From NCBI GenBank assembly GCA_026129135.1, contig JAHCIQ010000002.1, positions 434,001 to 498,000 of the forward strand: 64,000 nt of DNA, written 5' to 3'. This DNA is from Cyanobacteria bacterium TGS_CYA1. Its GTDB lineage: Bacteria > Cyanobacteriota > Vampirovibrionia > Obscuribacterales > Obscuribacteraceae. Both the position numbers and the translations under genes were made by a program. The notes under the pieces are model-generated. The model was not told where the DNA came from and made no database searches. It was given only the letters and a program-made list of their open reading frames with translations. Positions 45,830-56,756 of this stretch are shown here, in pieces (the first letter of the stretch is position 1; each line of letters begins with the position of its first letter).

Positions 45830-48673
45830 CTAGTGCGATTGTGGTGGGGGTGGAGGCACTGGAGGAACCCGAGGCGACGGTACCGGGGGCAAACCAGGAG
45901 GCGCTGGTGGTATTTCAACTGGAGGAAATGGTGGCACTATAAGCAGCGGCGACGTAATCTGGAATCGCACTGCTTCATTTCGACAAGCTTGTTGACTTTT
46001 GTCTAGATCATGATCAGCAAGAGAACAGTCAAGCATATTTCCTTCTTGATCTGGATTTCTTACGTCAGCACCACTCTGGTTGCGAACATTGTTTTGACCC
46101 ATGACAGACCAGACTATCACTAATCTGTTATCTACTGGATCAGGCTCCGCATAGATGTTCAAGGATTGATATTGCAACTGGTCCTCGAGCAGTGAGCTTA
46201 TACCTGTGACCTGAGAGAAGTTATTCTTACTTGCAGGGTCCATAAGACGAGCCCAATTGTTGAATCCACCTACAGCGTCAATGTTTTGCACAGTGACTGG
46301 TTTGATTGGCACAGGAACCTCATCTCCAATACTGAGCAAAATCACGCCGCCGCCTTCACCTTTAGAAGCATCACCCTGAGTAGTCAGTTTGAAGTTTCTA
46401 GATTGACTGGTCGGTATAACACTTTCCGGACAATTGGACATCGCAACGCCGCTCAAATTCTTGACGAAGAAAGGCGAACCTAGCCAATCTTCATCACCTC
46501 CGGCCTTTTTGTTTTGTCCGGTGGCAGCGGGTCCAGTGCCTACTATCTCAGAAACGGTAGCAGCACGACCTGGAGGGAAGAAATCGTTATTTCCAGCTAT
46601 GTGATAATACAACGGTTCAATTTTGTCGACACCTAAAGCGGTGACTGCAAGCAGATTATTGATTATCGCAAGTCCAAGATTAATAGCGCGAACACCAGAC
46701 GAATAGGCAATCAATCCACGATTATATTTTCTCGTCGGTTCTTGCATCTCTGCTACTTTTGCTCTGCGCTTGTTCTCCCAATCGTTCCATGTCTGCTGAA
46801 GCGATTGATATTCAGCCATATTGCCAGCGTTAATAGCATCTTGCATCTGGTCCGAAATTTCATTCTGTTTGTCTACGATCGCGTCAATTTCAGCAACAAT
46901 TTTGGCGATGATATCAGCTTGCTCTTTAGCCACCTGACCGCCAGCAACAGCGGTATCGCGTCCAAGCTGCATCATTTTAATCAGGTCTTCTCTGAAATCG
47001 AGCAATTCAGAAATTGGATTACCATCGGTTGTTGTTGGTCTATCATCTTTACCTTTGCCATGCGCCATCGTATGAGGCGGCGCCCATGCTAGCTGCTGAG
47101 GAACAGTTGCTTGCATTCTAAAGACCATGGCCTGGTCCAAGTAGATGTTACGAGTGCCATCGTTGAAATTGTTCAAGGAACGCGGATCGTTTCCTGCGGT
47201 CATGGCCTGGTCACTATTGGGCACCAGAGCAAAAATTCCTCCAAAAACATTACAAGCCGGGTTCGTATTTTCAGCCGCATATGCTTTTTGCATCAGGTCG
47301 AAATTATAGGAAATGACCTGATCTTTAATCAGTTCGTTTCCACGCAATTTTGTGTGCATCGCGTTATAAACTGCATCCACGTTGGGTCGCAGACTTTCGT
47401 TTCGCAGCCAATCATAAACGAAGAAGGCCAGTGCCACACTGGGATTGTCGGCTTTACGTCCTGCGACATCCGAGCGAGCAATTGAGCCACTGCCTGGAAA
47501 TGGTCCTTTTTTAGAAGTAAAATAATGACCGTTTCCTTTCCATCCACTCGTACCGGGCGAAGAGCTCGAACCAGCATCAGCTGGAAGCATGGATGAATTC
47601 ATCAAGCTCAATATGGTATCGAATTTGACACCATTGTCCTGAGCTGGAACACCTTGAGGAAACTCGAGTCGGAATATACCTGCAGTCGGTGTAATTCTTC
47701 TGTTGCCAGCACACGCGCAAGCAATCTCTTTTTTGATTTCGGTTGGCTTAGAAGTAACATTCTTCCCATCCCCGCCGGCAATAGCGCGCACCTTCTCTTT
47801 GACTGTCACGCGCACGGTGGTAGGGAATACTATCGGAGCGCCAGTCGTAATAGATTCAGTACTTGCAGGCGTAAAACTTGCCCTGTCAATCAAAGCTACG
47901 GTTTCACCTACTTGCGAAAATACAAATTTAGTGTCGCTTCCGCTGACCGGAACTGGAATATTGGAACGATAAAAAGTCTGCTGTCCCATACCTTGATTCA
48001 CTGTTGCAGCGTTAGTGGTGAGATTGACTTCTGCACGAGACAAAGGACTCGGAACGGGAATATTTGTAACGCCAGCACTATTTGTACGACCTACCTCGAT
48101 AGTGATATCTGCTGCGGTAACTGGTTCTACGCTTGCGGGTCTCAAACCACTAGAGTTGTATGCGTCTGCGGCAACTTGCGCAAGATTGACAGTCCTTGTG
48201 ACCCCGCTAGCGTCTTCATATTTAATGATGCCATTGGCATTGGCCGAACACAGGAGATTGTTCAGACGTCTTGTCGCATTTCCAAGTAGTTTGGAATCGT
48301 CTTTTACCAGAAATTCCATTGTTGTGTTGTTCAGTCTGCGAGCAATAATGAGATCAAGCCGGCAACGTGCCATCACAGTGTTGATACCGTAAACCGGGCG
48401 CCCGGCAAGACCAAGATTAGAATAGTCATCAACCACGCCTATTCTGCCAAGACCCGGGTCATCAATGGTAACTTTGCCGATTTCTTTAGCTACTGCTAGC
48501 ACTGACGCGTCTACAGCCGTCTGCGCTTGCTTTTGATGCGAAGTCATCTGCATAAAGATTATGAAGATTAGCCCTGCAAGTAAGATGACACCCAGAAATA
48601 CTGCTATGGGAATCACGAGACTTCCACGCTTAGACCTCTGCGACATGATAGCTGCCACGCTCTTACTCTTCAT
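45830..48673 (-). CDS. TadG-like pilus assembly protein with Pro-rich tail
   Basis: The 947-residue protein starts at the ATG at 48673, nine bases after AGAGG; a GTG 21 codons earlier lacks a site. A membrane segment (about 18-40) is followed by SHQKQAQTAVDASVLAVAKE, the TadE/TadG-type start. The long extracytoplasmic part (about 60-900) has no clear domain. The last 40 residues are proline-rich (PPVPSPRVPPVPPPPPQ). The gene lies three bases upstream of the di-haem oxidoreductase gene and is divergent from the TadE-like operon at 48875. It could be the pilus-associated surface protein of that operon. Confidence 0.85.
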   Translation of the reverse strand: MKSKSVAAIMSQRSKRGSLVIPIAVFLGVILLAGLIFIIFMQMTSHQKQAQTAVDASVLAVAKEIGKVTIDDPGLGRIGVVDDYSNLGLAGRPVYGINTVMARCRLDLIIARRLNNTTMEFLVKDDSKLLGNATRRLNNLLCSANANGIIKYEDASGVTRTVNLAQVAADAYNSSGLRPASVEPVTAADITIEVGRTNSAGVTNIPVPSPLSRAEVNLTTNAATVNQGMGQQTFYRSNIPVPVSGSDTKFVFSQVGETVALIDRASFTPASTESITTGAPIVFPTTVRVTVKEKVRAIAGGDGKNVTSKPTEIKKEIACACAGNRRITPTAGIFRLEFPQGVPAQDNGVKFDTILSLMNSSMLPADAGSSSSPGTSGWKGNGHYFTSKKGPFPGSGSIARSDVAGRKADNPSVALAFFVYDWLRNESLRPNVDAVYNAMHTKLRGNELIKDQVISYNFDLMQKAYAAENTNPACNVFGGIFALVPNSDQAMTAGNDPRSLNNFNDGTRNIYLDQAMVFRMQATVPQQLAWAPPHTMAHGKGKDDRPTTTDGNPISELLDFREDLIKMMQLGRDTAVAGGQVAKEQADIIAKIVAEIDAIVDKQNEISDQMQDAINAGNMAEYQSLQQTWNDWENKRRAKVAEMQEPTRKYNRGLIAYSSGVRAINLGLAIINNLLAVTALGVDKIEPLYYHIAGNNDFFPPGRAATVSEIVGTGPAATGQNKKAGGDEDWLGSPFFVKNLSGVAMSNCPESVIPTSQSRNFKLTTQGDASKGEGGGVILLSIGDEVPVPIKPVTVQNIDAVGGFNNWARLMDPASKNNFSQVTGISSLLEDQLQYQSLNIYAEPDPVDNRLVIVWSVMGQNNVRNQSGADVRNPDQEGNMLDCSLADHDLDKSQQACRNEAVRFQITSPLLIVPPFPPVEIPPAPPGLPPVPSPRVPPVPPPPPQSH

Positions 48674-48874
48674 AAGTGCTAACCTCTGTGTATGTTGGCG
48701 GTAGGTCTTGTCGATAAGCGAATATTCACTGGACACAAACCTTAACCATGCTTAATAATATTTTATAACCCCTCATATTGTGAAGGACTAAATCCAACAA
48801 TCTTATCTAAATAAGATTAATTGTCCCAAAGCTCCAATAGATATATTGGATATTCAAGGAGAAAAACGCAGGCA

Positions 48875-49321: not shown

Positions 49322-49860
49322 ACGGTTTCGTATCCAATTTCAAACAGAATCCAATAAAGAGCTTGAATAAAGTCGCGCTGAGTTTATCTGCTGGCGCTTT
49401 TCTATCGCTTTGTCTCTTGAGTTATGGCTCAATCCTTTTTATATGGCAAACTAGCGATCCCGGATGCGTATGTTACAGTCAGAGAATTTACATGTCGCGC
49501 GGTCGCTTTGAAAACATGCGACAGCTGTTTGATACAGCATTTTTCATACTGGCTCCGATACTGAGTTTTTTATTTTTCAAACTAAGTGAAAAGCTTTCCT
49601 TACCCCTTCGCAAATCCTTTTTAATCGCGCTTTTAACTAGCACTATCGCCTTGCTTTCAGCTCGCGCAATCTTCAACGAAGACATTCCTCAAAACTACTA
49701 TCAATTTATAATGGTCGGCAAAATAATGGCTTATCATTATGGCGAATTCGCTCGAATTTTCGTCCAGCCAATGTTTTCATGGGCATTTATAGGGTCCTTA
49801 CTTGTTTTTGTTTTGACCTTCATCACATCGCTCTTATTGATGAGGAAAAGCTCGCCATGA
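49318..49860 (+). CDS. Membrane protein with four transmembrane segments
   Basis: The 180-residue protein has hydrophobic segments at about 22-47, 70-88, 93-112 and 146-168. A conserved CVCYSQRI near 60 lies between the first two. No family is recognised. It overlaps the upstream and downstream genes by four bases each. In Tad loci, proteins like TadV or CpaA fit such a place, but neither active site is seen here. Confidence 0.75.
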   Translation: MNGFVSNFKQNPIKSLNKVALSLSAGAFLSLCLLSYGSILFIWQTSDPGCVCYSQRIYMSRGRFENMRQLFDTAFFILAPILSFLFFKLSEKLSLPLRKSFLIALLTSTIALLSARAIFNEDIPQNYYQFIMVGKIMAYHYGEFARIFVQPMFSWAFIGSLLVFVLTFITSLLLMRKSSP

Positions 49861-50318
49861 AGCGCAACAGACAAGGACAACAAATTGCCGAATTCGGGCC
49901 GGCGCTCATGATTGCGATTCCATTACTTGCAATTATGCTTTCATGCTTAAGTTTCGGAGCCGGAGTAGGTGCACTTGCTTTAGGAGCTCAGCATGCAGCA
50001 AGAGAAGCCGCAGCAACCGGAACCTATACACTAGCCCAACAAAGAGTAAACGAAAATCTGACTACTTTGAGCGGCCCGCTCGGGCAATTTGGTGGGATTC
50101 AAAACGGTAAGCTTCTTCTTGTAGTTGAAGAATCACCTACAGGCGAAACTAATTTCACTGTTCATACAAGAGGTGGTTCTATCGATCCGGCTAACAAAGT
50201 ATACCGGTACAAAGTACGAGGTGAATGTGAAATCAAACCATTATTCTGGTGGGTTAGTATTCCGACTGTCTATGAAGCAACAGGCATAGTCGAGCATCCT
50301 GAGGGACTGGGAGTATGA
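49857..50318 (+). CDS. TadE-like pseudopilin
   Basis: The 153-residue protein starts at the ATG at 49857, overlapping the upstream stop (ATGA). It has the TadE pattern: GQQIAEFGPALMIAIPLLAIM (Glu-containing start of a membrane segment) at about 8-28, then an alpha-helical region and a beta-rich end. TadE proteins are minor pilins of the Flp/Tad pilus. It is followed by a second TadE-like gene with a four-base overlap. Confidence 0.82.
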   Translation: MKRNRQGQQIAEFGPALMIAIPLLAIMLSCLSFGAGVGALALGAQHAAREAAATGTYTLAQQRVNENLTTLSGPLGQFGGIQNGKLLLVVEESPTGETNFTVHTRGGSIDPANKVYRYKVRGECEIKPLFWWVSIPTVYEATGIVEHPEGLGV

Positions 50319-50791
50319 TGTACACCAGAAAAAAGATTGGCTCAGTATCTGCTGAAATCATAATTTGCTTCATCGCTTTGATTCCGATTTTCTTTCTTAT
50401 TTTTGATTTGATAATCGTTTATGCCGGATATCAAACCAATCAAACCTTTTCGCGAGACGCCGCTCGTGCAGCGTCGCTTCTCCTGCCTCCTAAACAAGGC
50501 AAGCAGACCGAGGGCCCACTTTTTTTGCGGGCATCTCAAATATGCGCAAATGGCAGAAACATGGTCAAAGGCTATTTGAGTGGACCTATCCTGGAAAACG
50601 TAGAAGTGATGAATTTCACTCCACCAGGCCCTTTTGGTGGCACATATAGTGGCACAGTCACGGTCCGCACCACTCTGCAGGTCAAAGTACCAGCTGCCAT
50701 TCCCGGACTTATTCCAGAAATTGTAACCGTTAAAGGAGTAAGCACCTTTCCACTCACCGGAGTTGTGCAATCGACAGTGCAGGTGAACTAA
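50315..50791 (+). CDS. TadE-like pseudopilin
   Basis: The 158-residue protein has a membrane segment with the TadE pattern (SVSAEIIICFIALIPIFFLIF, about 10-30, with Glu14), followed by YAGYQTNQTFSRDAARAASL and a beta-rich part. It is the last gene of the four-gene operon. Together with 49857-50318 it gives two minor pilins, and no TadA, TadB/C or Flp gene is next to them. Such small sets may supply surface structures built with machinery encoded elsewhere. Confidence 0.82.
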   Translation: MMYTRKKIGSVSAEIIICFIALIPIFFLIFDLIIVYAGYQTNQTFSRDAARAASLLLPPKQGKQTEGPLFLRASQICANGRNMVKGYLSGPILENVEVMNFTPPGPFGGTYSGTVTVRTTLQVKVPAAIPGLIPEIVTVKGVSTFPLTGVVQSTVQVN

Positions 50792-50803: not shown

Positions 50804-51376
50804 TCAGTCGCGACCAACTCCAAGTCCGTCTGCAACCCTGTTTATATAGTTAAACCAGGATGCAATCAAATTTATTTGTAATATAGCTTTGTCGTCGAAT
50901 CCAACTTTGCGCAATGAAATGATGTCTTCGTTTGTGATTTGAGCAGGTTTAACAGTTAACTTCTCGACATACTCAAGCATTACCTTTTCTTCCGTGGTAA
51001 TGTCAGCCGATCGAAAATCTTTCTTTATTGCATTTGCAAGTGACTCATCCAGAGTCACGCGGCGCAGGAACTCCGCATGCGAAGTCACTCAGTAAAAACA
51101 ATCATTGAGCGCAGAGACAGTTGCCGCGATCATTTCGTGCTGTCGTCTCTTCAAGGGCAAATCGGGGCTCATCAGAGCGCCAAATGTGGAAAAGGCATGA
51201 TTCAAAGCTTCTGGTATGAGACTATGAGAACTCACTATAGCGGCAGCCTGACCTTCTTTTTCAACAAGTTCAGCAACAGGAGTTGCATACTCTATGGGAT
51301 ATAACTGGCGCGATGCTTCCATCGCTTCGGCCACTTTTGGATCGTCTTGGGGTCCAACGGTTTTAATCCAGGTCAT
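50804..51376 (-). CDS. CMD/AhpD-like peroxidase-related protein, probable selenoprotein (CxxU)
   Basis: Read through one in-frame TGA, the frame gives a 190-residue protein, the normal size of the family (peroxidase-related, carboxymuconolactone-decarboxylase fold). The family redox motif CxxC stands at residues 93-96 and here reads C-F-Y-TGA, so the TGA replaces the second Cys. Both halves fit the family without a break: YPIEYATPVAEL and REMI-like QHEMIAATVSALNDC before it, VTSHAEFLRRVT and WFNYINRVADGLG after it. GAGG lies five bases before the ATG. Hairpins downstream of the TGA could act as SECIS elements. It is divergent from an RND pump under a TetR operator. No selABD or tRNA-Sec gene is in the window. 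Confidence 0.8.
51056..51079 (-). promoter_or_regulatory. Candidate bacterial SECIS hairpin after the in-frame TGA
   Basis: Nine bases after the TGA (51089-51091), a seven-pair stem (CAUGCGG with CCGCGUG, one G-U pair) closes a ten-base loop that starts AG. The loop begins 16 bases after the TGA, within the distance usual for bacterial SECIS elements, and has a G among its first two bases. An alternative perfect seven-pair hairpin lies at 51040-51058 with loop UGGAU starting 37 bases after the TGA. Only folding and experiment can decide. Confidence 0.5.
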
Positions 51377-51420: not shown

Positions 51421-51449
51421 TTGACAGATTAGACTGACCGGTCTATTCT
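51421..51449 (+). promoter_or_regulatory. RND pump promoter with TetR operator in the spacer
   Basis: TTGACA (51421-51426) and TATTCT (51444-51449) are exactly 17 bases apart. The operator TAGACTGACCGGTCTA (51430-51445) fills the spacer. The same layout recurs at 54682-54710. It lies 102 bases before the pump ATG and about 45 bases before the divergent selenoprotein gene, so it may affect both. Confidence 0.75.
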
Positions 51450-51551: not shown

Positions 51552-54500
51552 ATGTGGATAGTCAAACTGGCGCTCAAACGCCCGTATACGATTGCCGTGA
51601 TGGCGATTCTCATTTTGCTTATGGGAATCACTTCTATTAAAAATACCGCTGTCGACATTTTTCCCGACATCAATATTCCGGTCATTAGCATTATCTGGAC
51701 TTATAACGGACTGCCTGCCGAAGAATTCGAACGCCGCCTCACCATATATAGTGAATATTCTCTTTCTGCAAACGTAAAAGATGTCAGATCAATCGAGTCG
51801 CAAACTCTCGATGGAGTCGGAGTAATTAGACTTTATTTCCACCCCGGCGCCAATGTCGAATCGGCAATGGCTCAAGCAACAGCCGTATCACAAGCTATTT
51901 TGCGTCGCATGCCTCAAGGAGTCCAGCCACCAATTATTTTGCGTTACACCGCATCGAGCGTACCGATTATTCAACTTTCATTGTCCAGTCAAAATCTTTC
52001 TGAAGCACAACTTTACGACTATGGCATCTTTCGTATAAGACAGGCCCTGGCAGTAGTGCAGGGCACGACCCTGCCTGCTCCATTTGGTGGCAAAGTGCGC
52101 CAGATAATGATTGACATAGACCCCGTAGCGCTCCAATCCAAGGGGCTTTCGCCCCAGGACGTAAACAACGCTATCAATGCCCAGAATTTAGCTGCACCAT
52201 CTGGAAAAGCCAAAGTTGGCAGCACAGATTATCGAGTTTTGATGAATAACACACCTGAAGTAGTGGAGGCAATAAATGATATACCTGTTAAAACAATCAA
52301 TGGAAAAGTGGTTTTCGTCCACGATGTGGCGCATGTTCGCGATGGTTTTGCCGTCCAACAAAATATGGTGCATGCAGATGGTGCCCGTTCGGTCCTCGTC
52401 ACCATACTCAAAAACGGTAATGTATCGACGATAGACATCGTCAATAAAATCAAGGAGCTGGTGCCCACTCTCCAGGCAGCAGCTCCTGCGGGAATGAAAA
52501 TCAAAGAACTTTTTGACCAGAGTATTTTCGTCAAAGCAGCAGTCAATAACGTTATAGAAGAAGGACTGATAGCCTCATGTTTGACTGGGACAATGATCCT
52601 TTTGTTTCTTGGAAGCTGGCGAAGTACTACGATTGTGCTTGTATCTATTCCGTTATCTATTCTGACCTCAATAACAATATTGAGTGCCATGGGCATGTCG
52701 CTCAATATCATGACTCTTGGCGGACTTGCGCTTGCTATCGGAATACTCGTAGACGATGCTACTGTCGAAATAGAAAACATCCATCGCAATTTGCATATGG
52801 GCAAAGACCTGGAGACAGCCATTCTCAATGGTGCCGAACAAATTGCCGTACCTACATTCGTTGCGACCCTGGCAATTTGTATAGTATTTATTCCAGTGGT
52901 ACTACTTGAAGGACCAGCTCGATACCTTTTCGTTCCATTCGCTCTGGCTGTCGTATTTGCTGTGGGTGCGTCTTATTTCTTGTCGCGAACACTAGTTCCT
53001 GTAATGGTCAAATATATGCTTGCCGCCGAATTGAATCAGACTAGAGTAGGCAAAAATCTGTTTCACAAAATTCACGACTGGTTTATATTCAGATTTGAAA
53101 AATTACGCTTGCTCTATGTGCACAATTTAGACCGTGCCTTGATTTCGCACAAAAGCACAATTGTACTTGGGTTGTTTGTTTTGTTGAGTGGATTTTTGAT
53201 CCTGCCATTTGTAGGAAGAGATTTTTTCCCGGCAGTGGATGCCGGCCAATTTCGTCTTCATCTCAAAGCCCCAAGCGGAACCAGAATAGAAGAAACAGAA
53301 AATATATTTGCTCGGGTCGAAGACAAAATCAAAGAAATAATTCCAGAAGATGAAGTGGCTTTGATCATAGACAACATAGGTGTTCCGGCTGAAACTTTCA
53401 ACCTCGCCTTTGGTGACAGTGCCACTATCGGAACAGCTGACGGAGAAATCCTTGTTTCGCTAAAGCATCACAAAAAGCATTCGACTTTTCACTATATGAA
53501 AAAAATGCGCGAAGAATTACCCAAATCTTTTCCCGATTGCACCTTTTATTTCCAGCCTTCAGACATAGTCAATCAAATATTGAGTTTTGGTCTGCCAGCA
53601 CCAATTGATGTACGCATAACGGGATACAACAAAATAGAAAATCTAGAAACTGCTCGCCAGATAATGGATGATATGCAGAAAATCCGCGGAATAGCAGACG
53701 TACATTTGCATCAAGAAGTAGATGCACCACAATTAAAACTCGACGTGGACAGAACTCGTGCAGCTCAATACGGTCTTTCGCAGCGCGATGTGGCAAACGA
53801 CGTACTGGTTTCGCTCAGCTCCAATACTGCTGTGACACCAAATTATTGGGTCGATCCCATGAGTGGCATTCAATATTTTTTAGCAGTGCAAACTCCCCAA
53901 CATCTGGTAAGCACAATAAATAATATTTTGCAGACTCCGCTCAGCACCAAAACACCAGATGGAAAACCAGAATTGCTCGGCAACGTCGCAAGCATTAAAC
54001 GCACAACCGGATATGGTGTCATAAACCATTTCAATATCCAGCCCGTCTTCGACATTTATGCAAGTGTGCAATCGCGCGACCTTGGCGGCGTTTCGCAAGA
54101 CGTGCAGGCTGTGCTTGAAAAATACAAATCGAAAATGAAACCAGGCAATCAAATAATATTACGTGGCGTAGTCGAATCGATGGACAGTGCCTTTTTGAAA
54201 CTGGGTATCGGCTTTGTGGCAGCAGTAGTCTTCGTTTACTTACTGATGGTCATAAACTTTCAAAGCTGGACCGACCCGCTAATCATTATATGTGCGCTTC
54301 CCGGAGCCGTCGCTGGAATTATCTGGATCTTGTTCTTGACCTCGACTACATTTAGCGTACCCTCACTGATGGGAGCAATTATGAGCGTGGGAGTGGCCAC
54401 GGCAAACAGTATATTGATGGTTGTTTTTGCCAAAGAGCGCATGCAAGAAGGCAAAGACTCTCACCAGGCAGCGCTCGACGCTGCAAGCACAAGATTCAGA

Positions 54501-54740
54501 CCGGTTTTGATGACCGCCCTTGCTATGGTGGTAGGCATGATTCCCATGTCTCTTGGACTTGGTGAGGGCGGAGAACAAAATGCTCCACTTGGAAGAGCCG
54601 TAATAGGCGGTCTTTCAATGGCAACTCTCTATACTCTCTTTTTTGTGCCGGCCATATTCAAAATAGTCCACAGGAGGGGGGTTGACAAATTAGACCGACC
54701 AGTCTATTCTGGGAATATCGAAGCGGGGTCCAAGCAATGA
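51552..54740 (+). CDS. RND-family efflux pump, inner-membrane permease
   Basis: The 1062-residue protein starts at the ATG at 51552, six bases after GGGGA; a TTG five codons earlier is less likely. It has the AcrB-like pattern: a first membrane segment, VDIFPDINIPVI, two large periplasmic loops and twelve membrane segments, with the proton-relay aspartates in GILVDDATVEIENI near 402-408. A conserved end motif VVGMIPMSLGLGEGGEQN is present. Substrates are unknown; the regulator suggests electrophiles or phenolics. The adaptor gene follows with a four-base overlap and has its own promoter inside this gene. Confidence 0.93.
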   Translation: MWIVKLALKRPYTIAVMAILILLMGITSIKNTAVDIFPDINIPVISIIWTYNGLPAEEFERRLTIYSEYSLSANVKDVRSIESQTLDGVGVIRLYFHPGANVESAMAQATAVSQAILRRMPQGVQPPIILRYTASSVPIIQLSLSSQNLSEAQLYDYGIFRIRQALAVVQGTTLPAPFGGKVRQIMIDIDPVALQSKGLSPQDVNNAINAQNLAAPSGKAKVGSTDYRVLMNNTPEVVEAINDIPVKTINGKVVFVHDVAHVRDGFAVQQNMVHADGARSVLVTILKNGNVSTIDIVNKIKELVPTLQAAAPAGMKIKELFDQSIFVKAAVNNVIEEGLIASCLTGTMILLFLGSWRSTTIVLVSIPLSILTSITILSAMGMSLNIMTLGGLALAIGILVDDATVEIENIHRNLHMGKDLETAILNGAEQIAVPTFVATLAICIVFIPVVLLEGPARYLFVPFALAVVFAVGASYFLSRTLVPVMVKYMLAAELNQTRVGKNLFHKIHDWFIFRFEKLRLLYVHNLDRALISHKSTIVLGLFVLLSGFLILPFVGRDFFPAVDAGQFRLHLKAPSGTRIEETENIFARVEDKIKEIIPEDEVALIIDNIGVPAETFNLAFGDSATIGTADGEILVSLKHHKKHSTFHYMKKMREELPKSFPDCTFYFQPSDIVNQILSFGLPAPIDVRITGYNKIENLETARQIMDDMQKIRGIADVHLHQEVDAPQLKLDVDRTRAAQYGLSQRDVANDVLVSLSSNTAVTPNYWVDPMSGIQYFLAVQTPQHLVSTINNILQTPLSTKTPDGKPELLGNVASIKRTTGYGVINHFNIQPVFDIYASVQSRDLGGVSQDVQAVLEKYKSKMKPGNQIILRGVVESMDSAFLKLGIGFVAAVVFVYLLMVINFQSWTDPLIIICALPGAVAGIIWILFLTSTTFSVPSLMGAIMSVGVATANSILMVVFAKERMQEGKDSHQAALDAASTRFRPVLMTALAMVVGMIPMSLGLGEGGEQNAPLGRAVIGGLSMATLYTLFFVPAIFKIVHRRGVDKLDRPVYSGNIEAGSKQ
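54682..54710 (+). promoter_or_regulatory. Adaptor-gene promoter with TetR operator in the spacer
   Basis: TTGACA (54682-54687), a 17-base spacer and TATTCT (54705-54710), with the operator TAGACCGACCAGTCTA (54691-54706) inside. Hexamers and spacing are identical to the pump promoter. It lies in the last 60 bases of the pump gene, so the adaptor can also be made without the pump. Confidence 0.72.
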
Positions 54741-56086
54741 ATTCGCCTTTAAAACTAACAAAACTTCTAAGCGTTTCAGGAATCACAATGAGTGTTCTCC
54801 TGCCCCTTGGAGTGATACCACGCATAATGCAAGCTCAAGAACTCGACACTAAAGAAAAGACTCTCGCTCAAAATCTGCCAAGCGTGACTGTGAGCAAGTC
54901 TCAGCTAAGTCCTGAGCAAAGGCAATTCAGCTTGCCAGGTAACATAGAAGCAATTTTAGAAACGCCAATTTATGCAAGATCAAATGGTTACGTGCGCTCG
55001 CGCCTGGTAGACATTGGCGATGAAGTAAGTGCCAATCAGCTTATTGCCGAAATCGAAACACCAGAAATCGACGAGAGCAATCGCGAAGCTAAAGCCGAAG
55101 TGCTTACAAGCCAGGCACTTAAAGCTCAGAACGAAGCACAGCAAGCCAAAGCTAGCGCCGATTTGCAACAAATGAAAGCACAGTTAGCGCAAATGAAAGC
55201 ATCTCTTTCAGAAGCTCAGGCAAACGAAATGTTCGCAAAAACGACCTATTCGCGCTACAAACGCCTCGGCGACGAAGGTGCTGTTTCTTCGCTTGATGTT
55301 GACGAAAAAGAAACCAGATTCAAAACTGCTACTGCAACAAGACTCGCAGCCGAAGAGCGTATCAGTGCAACAATATCGCAAATAACTGCAGCAGAAGCCA
55401 ATTTAAATGCACAAATGGCTAATGTCAGAGTAAGCGTTGCAAACATCGAAGCAGCACGTGCACGCGAGAGCCGATCACACGAAGAGCAATCTTTCCAAAA
55501 GGTTTTGAGCCCCTTTCAAGGCATAATTACCGAGCGTAATATCGAGCAAGGCGGACTTGTAACTTCGGGCAGTGATTCTTCAAGACAGCCTCTTTATCGC
55601 ATTGCACGAGTGGATGTTGTCAAAGTTTTTGTCGACGTTCCACAGTTCGCTATAAACGGAATTAAGCAAGGAGTGCCCGTAAACGTGTCTGTTAAGGAAT
55701 TTCCTTCACGTGTATTTCAAGGCAAAGTAGCAAGAACCTCTGTAGCACTCGATCCCGCTACTAGAACTTTGCGCACCGAAATACATATCGCAAATAATGA
55801 TCGTGCGCTTGCTCCTGGAATGTATTCAGATGTCCAGTTTGCTGTGTCACGTGGCGAAAGACCGATATTAGTGCCGACAAGTGCAGTTTTATCAGGTTCT
55901 GAAGGTCCTCACGTTTTATTGGTTGACCGCTCAAAACGCATACACCATCAGTCTGTAAACCTGGGAGATGACCTGGGAAACGAAATTGAAATCACAAAAG
56001 GCTTGAAAGCAGGGGAATCTATCGTAGTTAATCCTCAAGATTCCTTGAAAACAGGCACTCTGGTAGCAACGTCCGAACTAAAGTAA
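54737..56086 (+). CDS. RND periplasmic adaptor (membrane fusion protein)
   Basis: The 449-residue protein starts within the pump stop codon (ATGA). A hydrophobic signal (about 12-32) is followed by the barrel-sandwich start LETPIYARSNGYVRSRLVDI near 74-93, a long coiled-coil hairpin (about 110-255) and the second barrel-sandwich half SPFQGIITERNIEQGG near 255-270. It links the RND permease to an outer-membrane channel. No TolC-type gene is seen in the window. It has its own TetR-controlled promoter. Confidence 0.92.
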   Translation: MNSPLKLTKLLSVSGITMSVLLPLGVIPRIMQAQELDTKEKTLAQNLPSVTVSKSQLSPEQRQFSLPGNIEAILETPIYARSNGYVRSRLVDIGDEVSANQLIAEIETPEIDESNREAKAEVLTSQALKAQNEAQQAKASADLQQMKAQLAQMKASLSEAQANEMFAKTTYSRYKRLGDEGAVSSLDVDEKETRFKTATATRLAAEERISATISQITAAEANLNAQMANVRVSVANIEAARARESRSHEEQSFQKVLSPFQGIITERNIEQGGLVTSGSDSSRQPLYRIARVDVVKVFVDVPQFAINGIKQGVPVNVSVKEFPSRVFQGKVARTSVALDPATRTLRTEIHIANNDRALAPGMYSDVQFAVSRGERPILVPTSAVLSGSEGPHVLLVDRSKRIHHQSVNLGDDLGNEIEITKGLKAGESIVVNPQDSLKTGTLVATSELK

Positions 56087-56100
56087 TTGACAAAACGAAA

Positions 56101-56120
56101 TCTCTAATCCAGTCTATAAT
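56101..56120 (+). promoter_or_regulatory. Half-site of the TetR operator at the regulator promoter
   Basis: The right half CCAGTCTA, identical to that of the adaptor operator, runs into TATAAT (56115-56120). The left half does not match, and TTGACA at 56087 is 22 bases from the -10, too far for a standard promoter. Partial autoregulation is possible. Confidence 0.4.
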
Positions 56121-56135
56121 TAGGAAGATAAGAAA

Positions 56136-56756
56136 ATGGAGCTCACAACAGAAACTATGGGCAGCAAAACAGCTACCAAACAAGACACACGAGTCGCACT
56201 GCTCGAAGTCGGCATGGACATAATGCTTGAGAAAGGTTATTCCAACACCGGGATTCAAGAGATTTTGAGCGCGCTCAATGTTCCCAAAGGCTCCTTCTAT
56301 CATTATTTCGATAGCAAAGAAAACTATGCAGTCGAGATCATTCGTCACTTCGACGACTGCTATACAACCCAGCTCAATGGCACAATAGGCAATAAAGAAT
56401 TGAGTCCACTCAAACGTTTGCGGACATATGCCAACGAAGCTCGCAACAAACTAAACGACCAAGCCTGTCGAAAAGGTTGTCTCATCGGCAATCTGAGCCA
56501 GGAAATGTCGGACCAGAGCGAAGTCTTGCGTAAAGAGCTTTCGATTGTTCTAGCCAAACGTCTCGACTTATTCGCCAAATGTATCGAAGAAGGACAAAAG
56601 GCAGGCGAAATCAAAACCAATCATTCAGCCGCCGAGTTAGCCGACTTATTCATGAGCGCATTGTCTGGAGCCGTAATGATGGCTAAGACTTTGAAGAAGA
56701 TTGAGCCGCTCGATATTTTCATCAACATCATGATTGATGATCTGATTAAAGCCTAA
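56136..56756 (+). CDS. NemR-like TetR-family regulator
   Basis: The 206-residue protein has a TetR DNA-binding domain with VPKGSFYHYFDSKENYAVEI near 50-69 and a C-terminal domain containing CRKGCLIGNLSQEMSDQSE near 109-127. The Cys-containing GCL..LS.E..D.SE motif matches the NemR/AcuR subgroup, in which Cys residues react with electrophiles, chloramines or acrylate. The likely operators (consensus TAGACC..CC.GTCTA) stand at 51430, 54691 and 56826. AGGA precedes the ATG. It lies 49 bases after the adaptor gene and would shut off the pump in the absence of stress. Confidence 0.92.
   Translation: MELTTETMGSKTATKQDTRVALLEVGMDIMLEKGYSNTGIQEILSALNVPKGSFYHYFDSKENYAVEIIRHFDDCYTTQLNGTIGNKELSPLKRLRTYANEARNKLNDQACRKGCLIGNLSQEMSDQSEVLRKELSIVLAKRLDLFAKCIEEGQKAGEIKTNHSAAELADLFMSALSGAVMMAKTLKKIEPLDIFINIMIDDLIKA

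Follow-up and report, generated by a model that had tools for sequence, protein, structure and literature searches.

The window, i.e. the whole stretch of 64,000 nucleotides analysed here, contains on its minus strand a coding sequence (51376-50804) of 190 codons plus the final stop, and its sole interruption is an in-frame TGA at codon 96 (51091-51089). Two open reading frames, 51376-51089 and 51088-50804, abut here in the same frame, and its translation agrees with the sequence-only reading that had joined them as a single frame broken by this TGA alone. The gene starts with an ATG at 51376 that has an SD-like GAGG upstream, and its true stop is likewise a TGA (50806-50804). Around the internal TGA the translation reads NDCFY*VTSHAEFLRR, and the complete product of 190 residues would run from MTWIK via NDCFY-U-VTSHAEFLRR to GVGRD. 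Divergent from this gene lies an operon on the plus strand (51552-56756) that encodes an RND efflux permease (ACR_tran, 51552-54740), an RND periplasmic adaptor (TIGR01730, 54737-56086) and a TetR-family regulator (56136-56756). On the other flank of the locus Tad/TadE-like pilus genes are located (49779-50791 and 45830-48736).

With the TGA read as cysteine the whole protein scores 120.1 bits against TIGR01926 (cut-off 81.8) and 28.6 bits against Pfam CMD (cut-off 23). It is a member of the AhpD-like “peroxidase-related” family TIGR01926/COG2128 and the only representative of TIGR01926 found in its own genome. The match spans residues 39-187 and thus covers both halves, both of which had already been credited with family features, and the same model is matched by all 37 aligned relatives. 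A score of 74.3 bits against NF041238 (AhpD_rel_CFYUT) stays under the equivalog cut-off of 175. The catalytic pattern of AhpD is kept as E81-x11-C93-x2-U96-x3-H100. In AhpD the relay is formed by Glu118, Cys130, Cys133 and His137 and in PA0269 by Glu36, Cys48, Cys51 and His55 (PMC3141380), and the spacing of both is reproduced by E81, C93, U96 and H100. Among the 37 aligned sequences H80, E81, position 96 (selenocysteine counted as cysteine) and H100 are invariant, and C93 is present in more than 90%. Residue 96 corresponds to cysteine in the Cys-type members of the family including the solved homologues, so that the TGA indeed stands in place of the second active-site cysteine (C93-F-Y-U96), as had been proposed together with a check of this very position. 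The AlphaFold model of the selenoprotein shows an all-helical fold (mean pLDDT 90, pTM 0.89), and the best solved structures retrieved with Foldseek are the cysteine proteins 6k40, 3c1l, 2pfx and 2oyo.

The selenocysteine predicted at the second position of this CxxC-type motif would, by analogy with AhpD, form a selenol/thiol active site with C93, E81 and H100. Such a site might reduce peroxide or another small oxidant, and the oxidised enzyme may be resolved through a selenenylsulphide between C93 and Sec96. From the same analogy we infer a peroxidase activity of the selenoprotein. It is possible, if rather doubtful, that the selenocysteine is correctly assigned and the reaction is a different one, namely a disulphide or adaptor function like that of AhpD for AhpC or a reductive dehalogenation as in Bmp8; this concerns only the reaction and is compatible with the assignment as selenoprotein. 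AhpD is both adaptor and peroxidase, with weak peroxidase activity in PA0269 (PMC3141380), the structurally similar Bmp8 debrominase is found among the fold matches (6ohi/6ohj), and the solved relatives from TIGR01926 are named uncharacterized or putative. Against a different reaction speaks that the E/C/C(U)/H relay known from AhpD proteins with peroxidase activity is intact. In addition, the gene is followed in three relatives (L092, L095, L097) by one whose product looks OsmC-like from its sequence, OsmC being a family with hydroperoxide reductases.

The fold also bears on the question whether the TGA is a real stop, so that the functional product would be the N-terminal 95 residues only or two separately started polypeptides, the second one from the GTG at 51088. 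Gene finders would call two open reading frames here, but termination at this codon would split the active-site helix (H94-108) of a single predicted fold and part C93 from H100, and in nearly all relatives the break would likewise coincide precisely with the redox residue. We regard a real stop as very improbable. If the internal TGA is read as selenocysteine, gene finders wrongly split one selenoprotein gene into two.

The relatives were sampled from two sources, with 80 loci from a scan of a genome collection and the remainder from a search of 53 genomes of Obscuribacterales. The codon aligned with residue 96 is TGA in 94 of 95 loci and TGC in one; with duplicates removed, TGA is found in 87 of 88 distinct homologues. 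These TGA genes originate from Obscuribacterales, Acidobacteriota and Armatimonadota and from single records labelled Chloroflexota, Gemmatimonadota, KSB1 and Betaproteobacteria, where labels of metagenome-assembled genomes may be wrong; one “Chloroflexi” record, for instance, encodes exactly the same protein as a record from Obscuribacterales. This distribution effectively refutes a pseudogene or a sequencing error, i.e. a dead gene in which the cysteine codon TGC or TGT was mutated or misread to TGA. Although TGA is just one base away from both cysteine codons and the assembly is incomplete, the same TGA recurs in independent genomes of several phyla, both halves of the protein are under constraint and the machinery for selenocysteine is present. 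Such a loss is hardly credible, and the judgement that a pseudogene is unlikely is upheld by the identical codon in the homologues. In the subfamily tree the deep branches are poorly separated, and vertical descent and transfer are not told apart. No homologue was found in phages, and matches on plasmids reach in no case at least 60% identity, those listed being at about 29-37%. Across the relatives no generally conserved gene neighbourhood of the selenoprotein gene was found; the putative OsmC-like gene of the three relatives mentioned above is located directly downstream.

The genome that carries the selenoprotein gene (4.26 Mb, 91% complete) encodes all four components whose presence had been named as a check of the assignment. 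The tRNA-Sec scores 75.5 bits (cut-off 47) and has a TCA anticodon according to ARAGORN, SelA scores 451 bits, SelB 307 bits summed over one frame (cut-off 242) and SelD 354 bits (cut-off 125), and their genes lie on other contigs, distant from the selenoprotein locus. An alternative genetic code, with UGA read as tryptophan or another ordinary residue genome-wide, has a practically negligible probability: nothing was found in its favour, several neighbouring genes as well as the selenoprotein gene itself terminate at TGA, a bona fide tRNA-Sec occurs together with SelA, SelB and SelD, and the residue aligned in the cysteine homologues is cysteine and not tryptophan. Within the order SelA is present in 14 of 14 genomes with the TGA form versus 38 of 53 overall (P = 0.004, which is indicative as the genomes are related). 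The sole TGC exception (L103) reads THYC, with the first cysteine lost, and belongs to genome G026, where a second copy (L137) reads CSYC. This genome thus has cysteine forms only; SelA is absent from it, and neither SelB nor tRNA-Sec reaches the cut-off. The two copies possibly reflect a change from selenocysteine to cysteine with loss of the machinery.

A hairpin just past codon 96 would allow SelB and the selenocysteinyl-tRNA to decode the UGA as selenocysteine, and a candidate of this kind is predicted at 51079-51056 on the minus strand, 10-33 nt after the TGA (CAUGCGG-AGUUCCUGCG-CCGCGUG). Like bacterial SECIS elements it follows the UGA directly and has a conserved G at or close to a small apical loop; this G, 16 nt after the UGA, is invariant. 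In most relatives the hairpin is found 11-27 nt past the TGA; in the window gene and in other clades it occupies a similar place in a different pairing register, so that position is conserved and register is not. The codons of the HAEFLR stretch that follows the TGA are nearly invariant (GCA GAG TTT CTG CGT). A101 is encoded by GCA in 74 of 79 sequences versus 12% elsewhere in the same genes and R105 by CGT in 76 of 87 versus 11%. As judged from codon usage, this near-invariance exceeds the needs of the protein and apparently shapes a SECIS-like hairpin. The hairpins of the relatives have a mean energy of -8.96 kcal/mol, far below the -4.87 +/- 0.28 kcal/mol of their synonymous shuffles. When only the window gene is recoded synonymously after the codon usage of its neighbours, P is 0.005-0.03 for stretches of 30-45 nt; with the pooled codon usage of the relatives as background it is 0.11 for 30 nt. 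Against dinucleotide shuffles the window hairpin is not clearly better (z = -1.24), and base-pair covariation is modest to weak with 2 compensatory cells, partly because the pairing register shifts among clades. The case for a SECIS element therefore rests on the relatives. A covariance model of the hairpin, run over the own genome, matched the selenoprotein locus alone, so that it yields no further selenoproteins and is specific for this gene; an Rfam scan of the window gave no matches. From the recurrent codon, the machinery and the hairpin taken together, the apparent stop is almost certainly read as selenocysteine, which would yield one intact AhpD-like redox enzyme.

The sequence-only reading had placed the gene beside a TetR-regulated pump. 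This holds for the divergent position to the RND permease and for a candidate TetR (AcuR)-type operator in the shared region, and it needs correction insofar as the TetR gene itself comes last in the pump operon, about 4.8 kb from the selenoprotein gene. The regulator is AcuR-like (NF051457 175.9 bits, under the cut-off of 247; TetR_C_13). Between the divergent genes a candidate operator palindrome, TAGAC-n6-GTCTA, is found at 51430-51445 (TAGACTGACCGGTCTA), 53 bp from the ATG of the selenoprotein gene and overlapping the -10 element of a sigma-70-like promoter predicted for the pump operon (TTGACA-17-TATTCT, 51421-51449, plus strand; 1 found and 0.5 expected by chance). In Rhodobacter sphaeroides the AcuR operator is TAATAGAC-n6-GTCTATTA and overlaps a promoter (PMC3017554). 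An operator of LmrA/YxaF type was the first idea, and the AcuR literature fits the palindrome better. The degenerate palindrome occurs exactly in three places of the genome, besides 51430 at 54691-54706 within the 3' end of the RND permease gene and on another contig (L133, 1501-1516) about 60 bp upstream of a gene for a short-chain dehydrogenase (SDR); as the pattern was defined from the 51430 site after this had been seen, independent evidence comes from the other two copies only. In L118 (1444-2681), from a further Obscuribacterales genome, a TetR gene and a Cys-type CMD gene are transcribed away from each other, and the region between them holds two TAGAC-n6-GTCTA palindromes, which supports a link of this kind. 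None of the other loci compared showed the pump next to the selenoprotein gene. As this context is not conserved in relatives, the regulatory reading rests mainly on the window locus and L118. The AcuR-type palindrome between the divergent genes makes joint control plausible, and the most likely mode of regulation is that electrophile or xenobiotic stress derepresses the pump and the selenoenzyme together, albeit one that we put forward with considerable reserve.

What emerges is an AhpD-like subclade from Obscuribacterales, Acidobacteriota and Armatimonadota in which selenocysteine is nearly fixed and which in this lineage, as we tentatively suggest, has joined an RND pump in a regulon under an AcuR-type TetR protein. 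If this were true, selenoenzyme and efflux pump would represent a single unit of electrophile defence, and the AcuR-like operator provides a testable idea of when the selenoprotein is expressed. In the window as in many soil bacteria, automatic annotation would yield a pseudogene or a pair of fragments, and a widespread selenium-dependent enzyme would thus be missed. Since the subclade nearly always has selenocysteine and the cysteine form occurs in G026, a genome of the same order that lacks the machinery, it lends itself to the question why this residue is retained in bacteria.

Compared with AcuR of R. sphaeroides, the window resembles the known system in the AcuR-type TetR regulator and in the type of operator over a promoter (predicted in the window). 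It differs in that the regulator is below the equivalog cut-off, that neither acuI nor dddL was noticed in its vicinity and that the presumed targets are the pump, the SDR enzyme encoded elsewhere and possibly the selenoprotein. The Cys-type TIGR01926 proteins 6k40 (AhpD from Deinococcus radiodurans) and 3c1l (Mlr4105) have the active site of the selenoprotein and also its fold, with a TM of about 0.7-0.8, but those are CxxC proteins with 28-34% identity whereas the window protein has CxxU. The model NF041238, which corresponds to “hypothetical protein 1” from the Sargasso Sea, has in common with it the CFYU motif (according to the model name) and a related AhpD domain; this model is 357 positions long, whereas the window protein comprises 190 residues with CFYUV and stays well below the cut-off.

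The closest comparison is with the AhpD-like CxxU selenoproteins of COG2128/TIGR01926, which have been on record since 2005, with 27 such COG2128 sequences from the Sargasso Sea (PMC1088965), 299 from the GOS data (PMC2398784) and an entry for TIGR01926 CxxU in a 2026 review (PMC13188914). The remark that Sec-containing AhpD-like proteins were reported in other bacteria is thus confirmed by the literature, and the window gene adds to a known selenoprotein family. Our search of a partial literature collection gave no paper joining Obscuribacter and selenocysteine. The family itself is thus not what is new here. With the Sargasso and GOS sequences (COG2128 YciW/TIGR01926) the window member shares the family model, CxxU with selenocysteine in second position and a SECIS-like hairpin after the UGA. 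It differs from them in its occurrence in Obscuribacterales, in a subclade with Acidobacteriota and Armatimonadota where selenocysteine is nearly universal, and in being transcribed divergently from an RND pump operon whose last gene encodes an AcuR-like TetR regulator.
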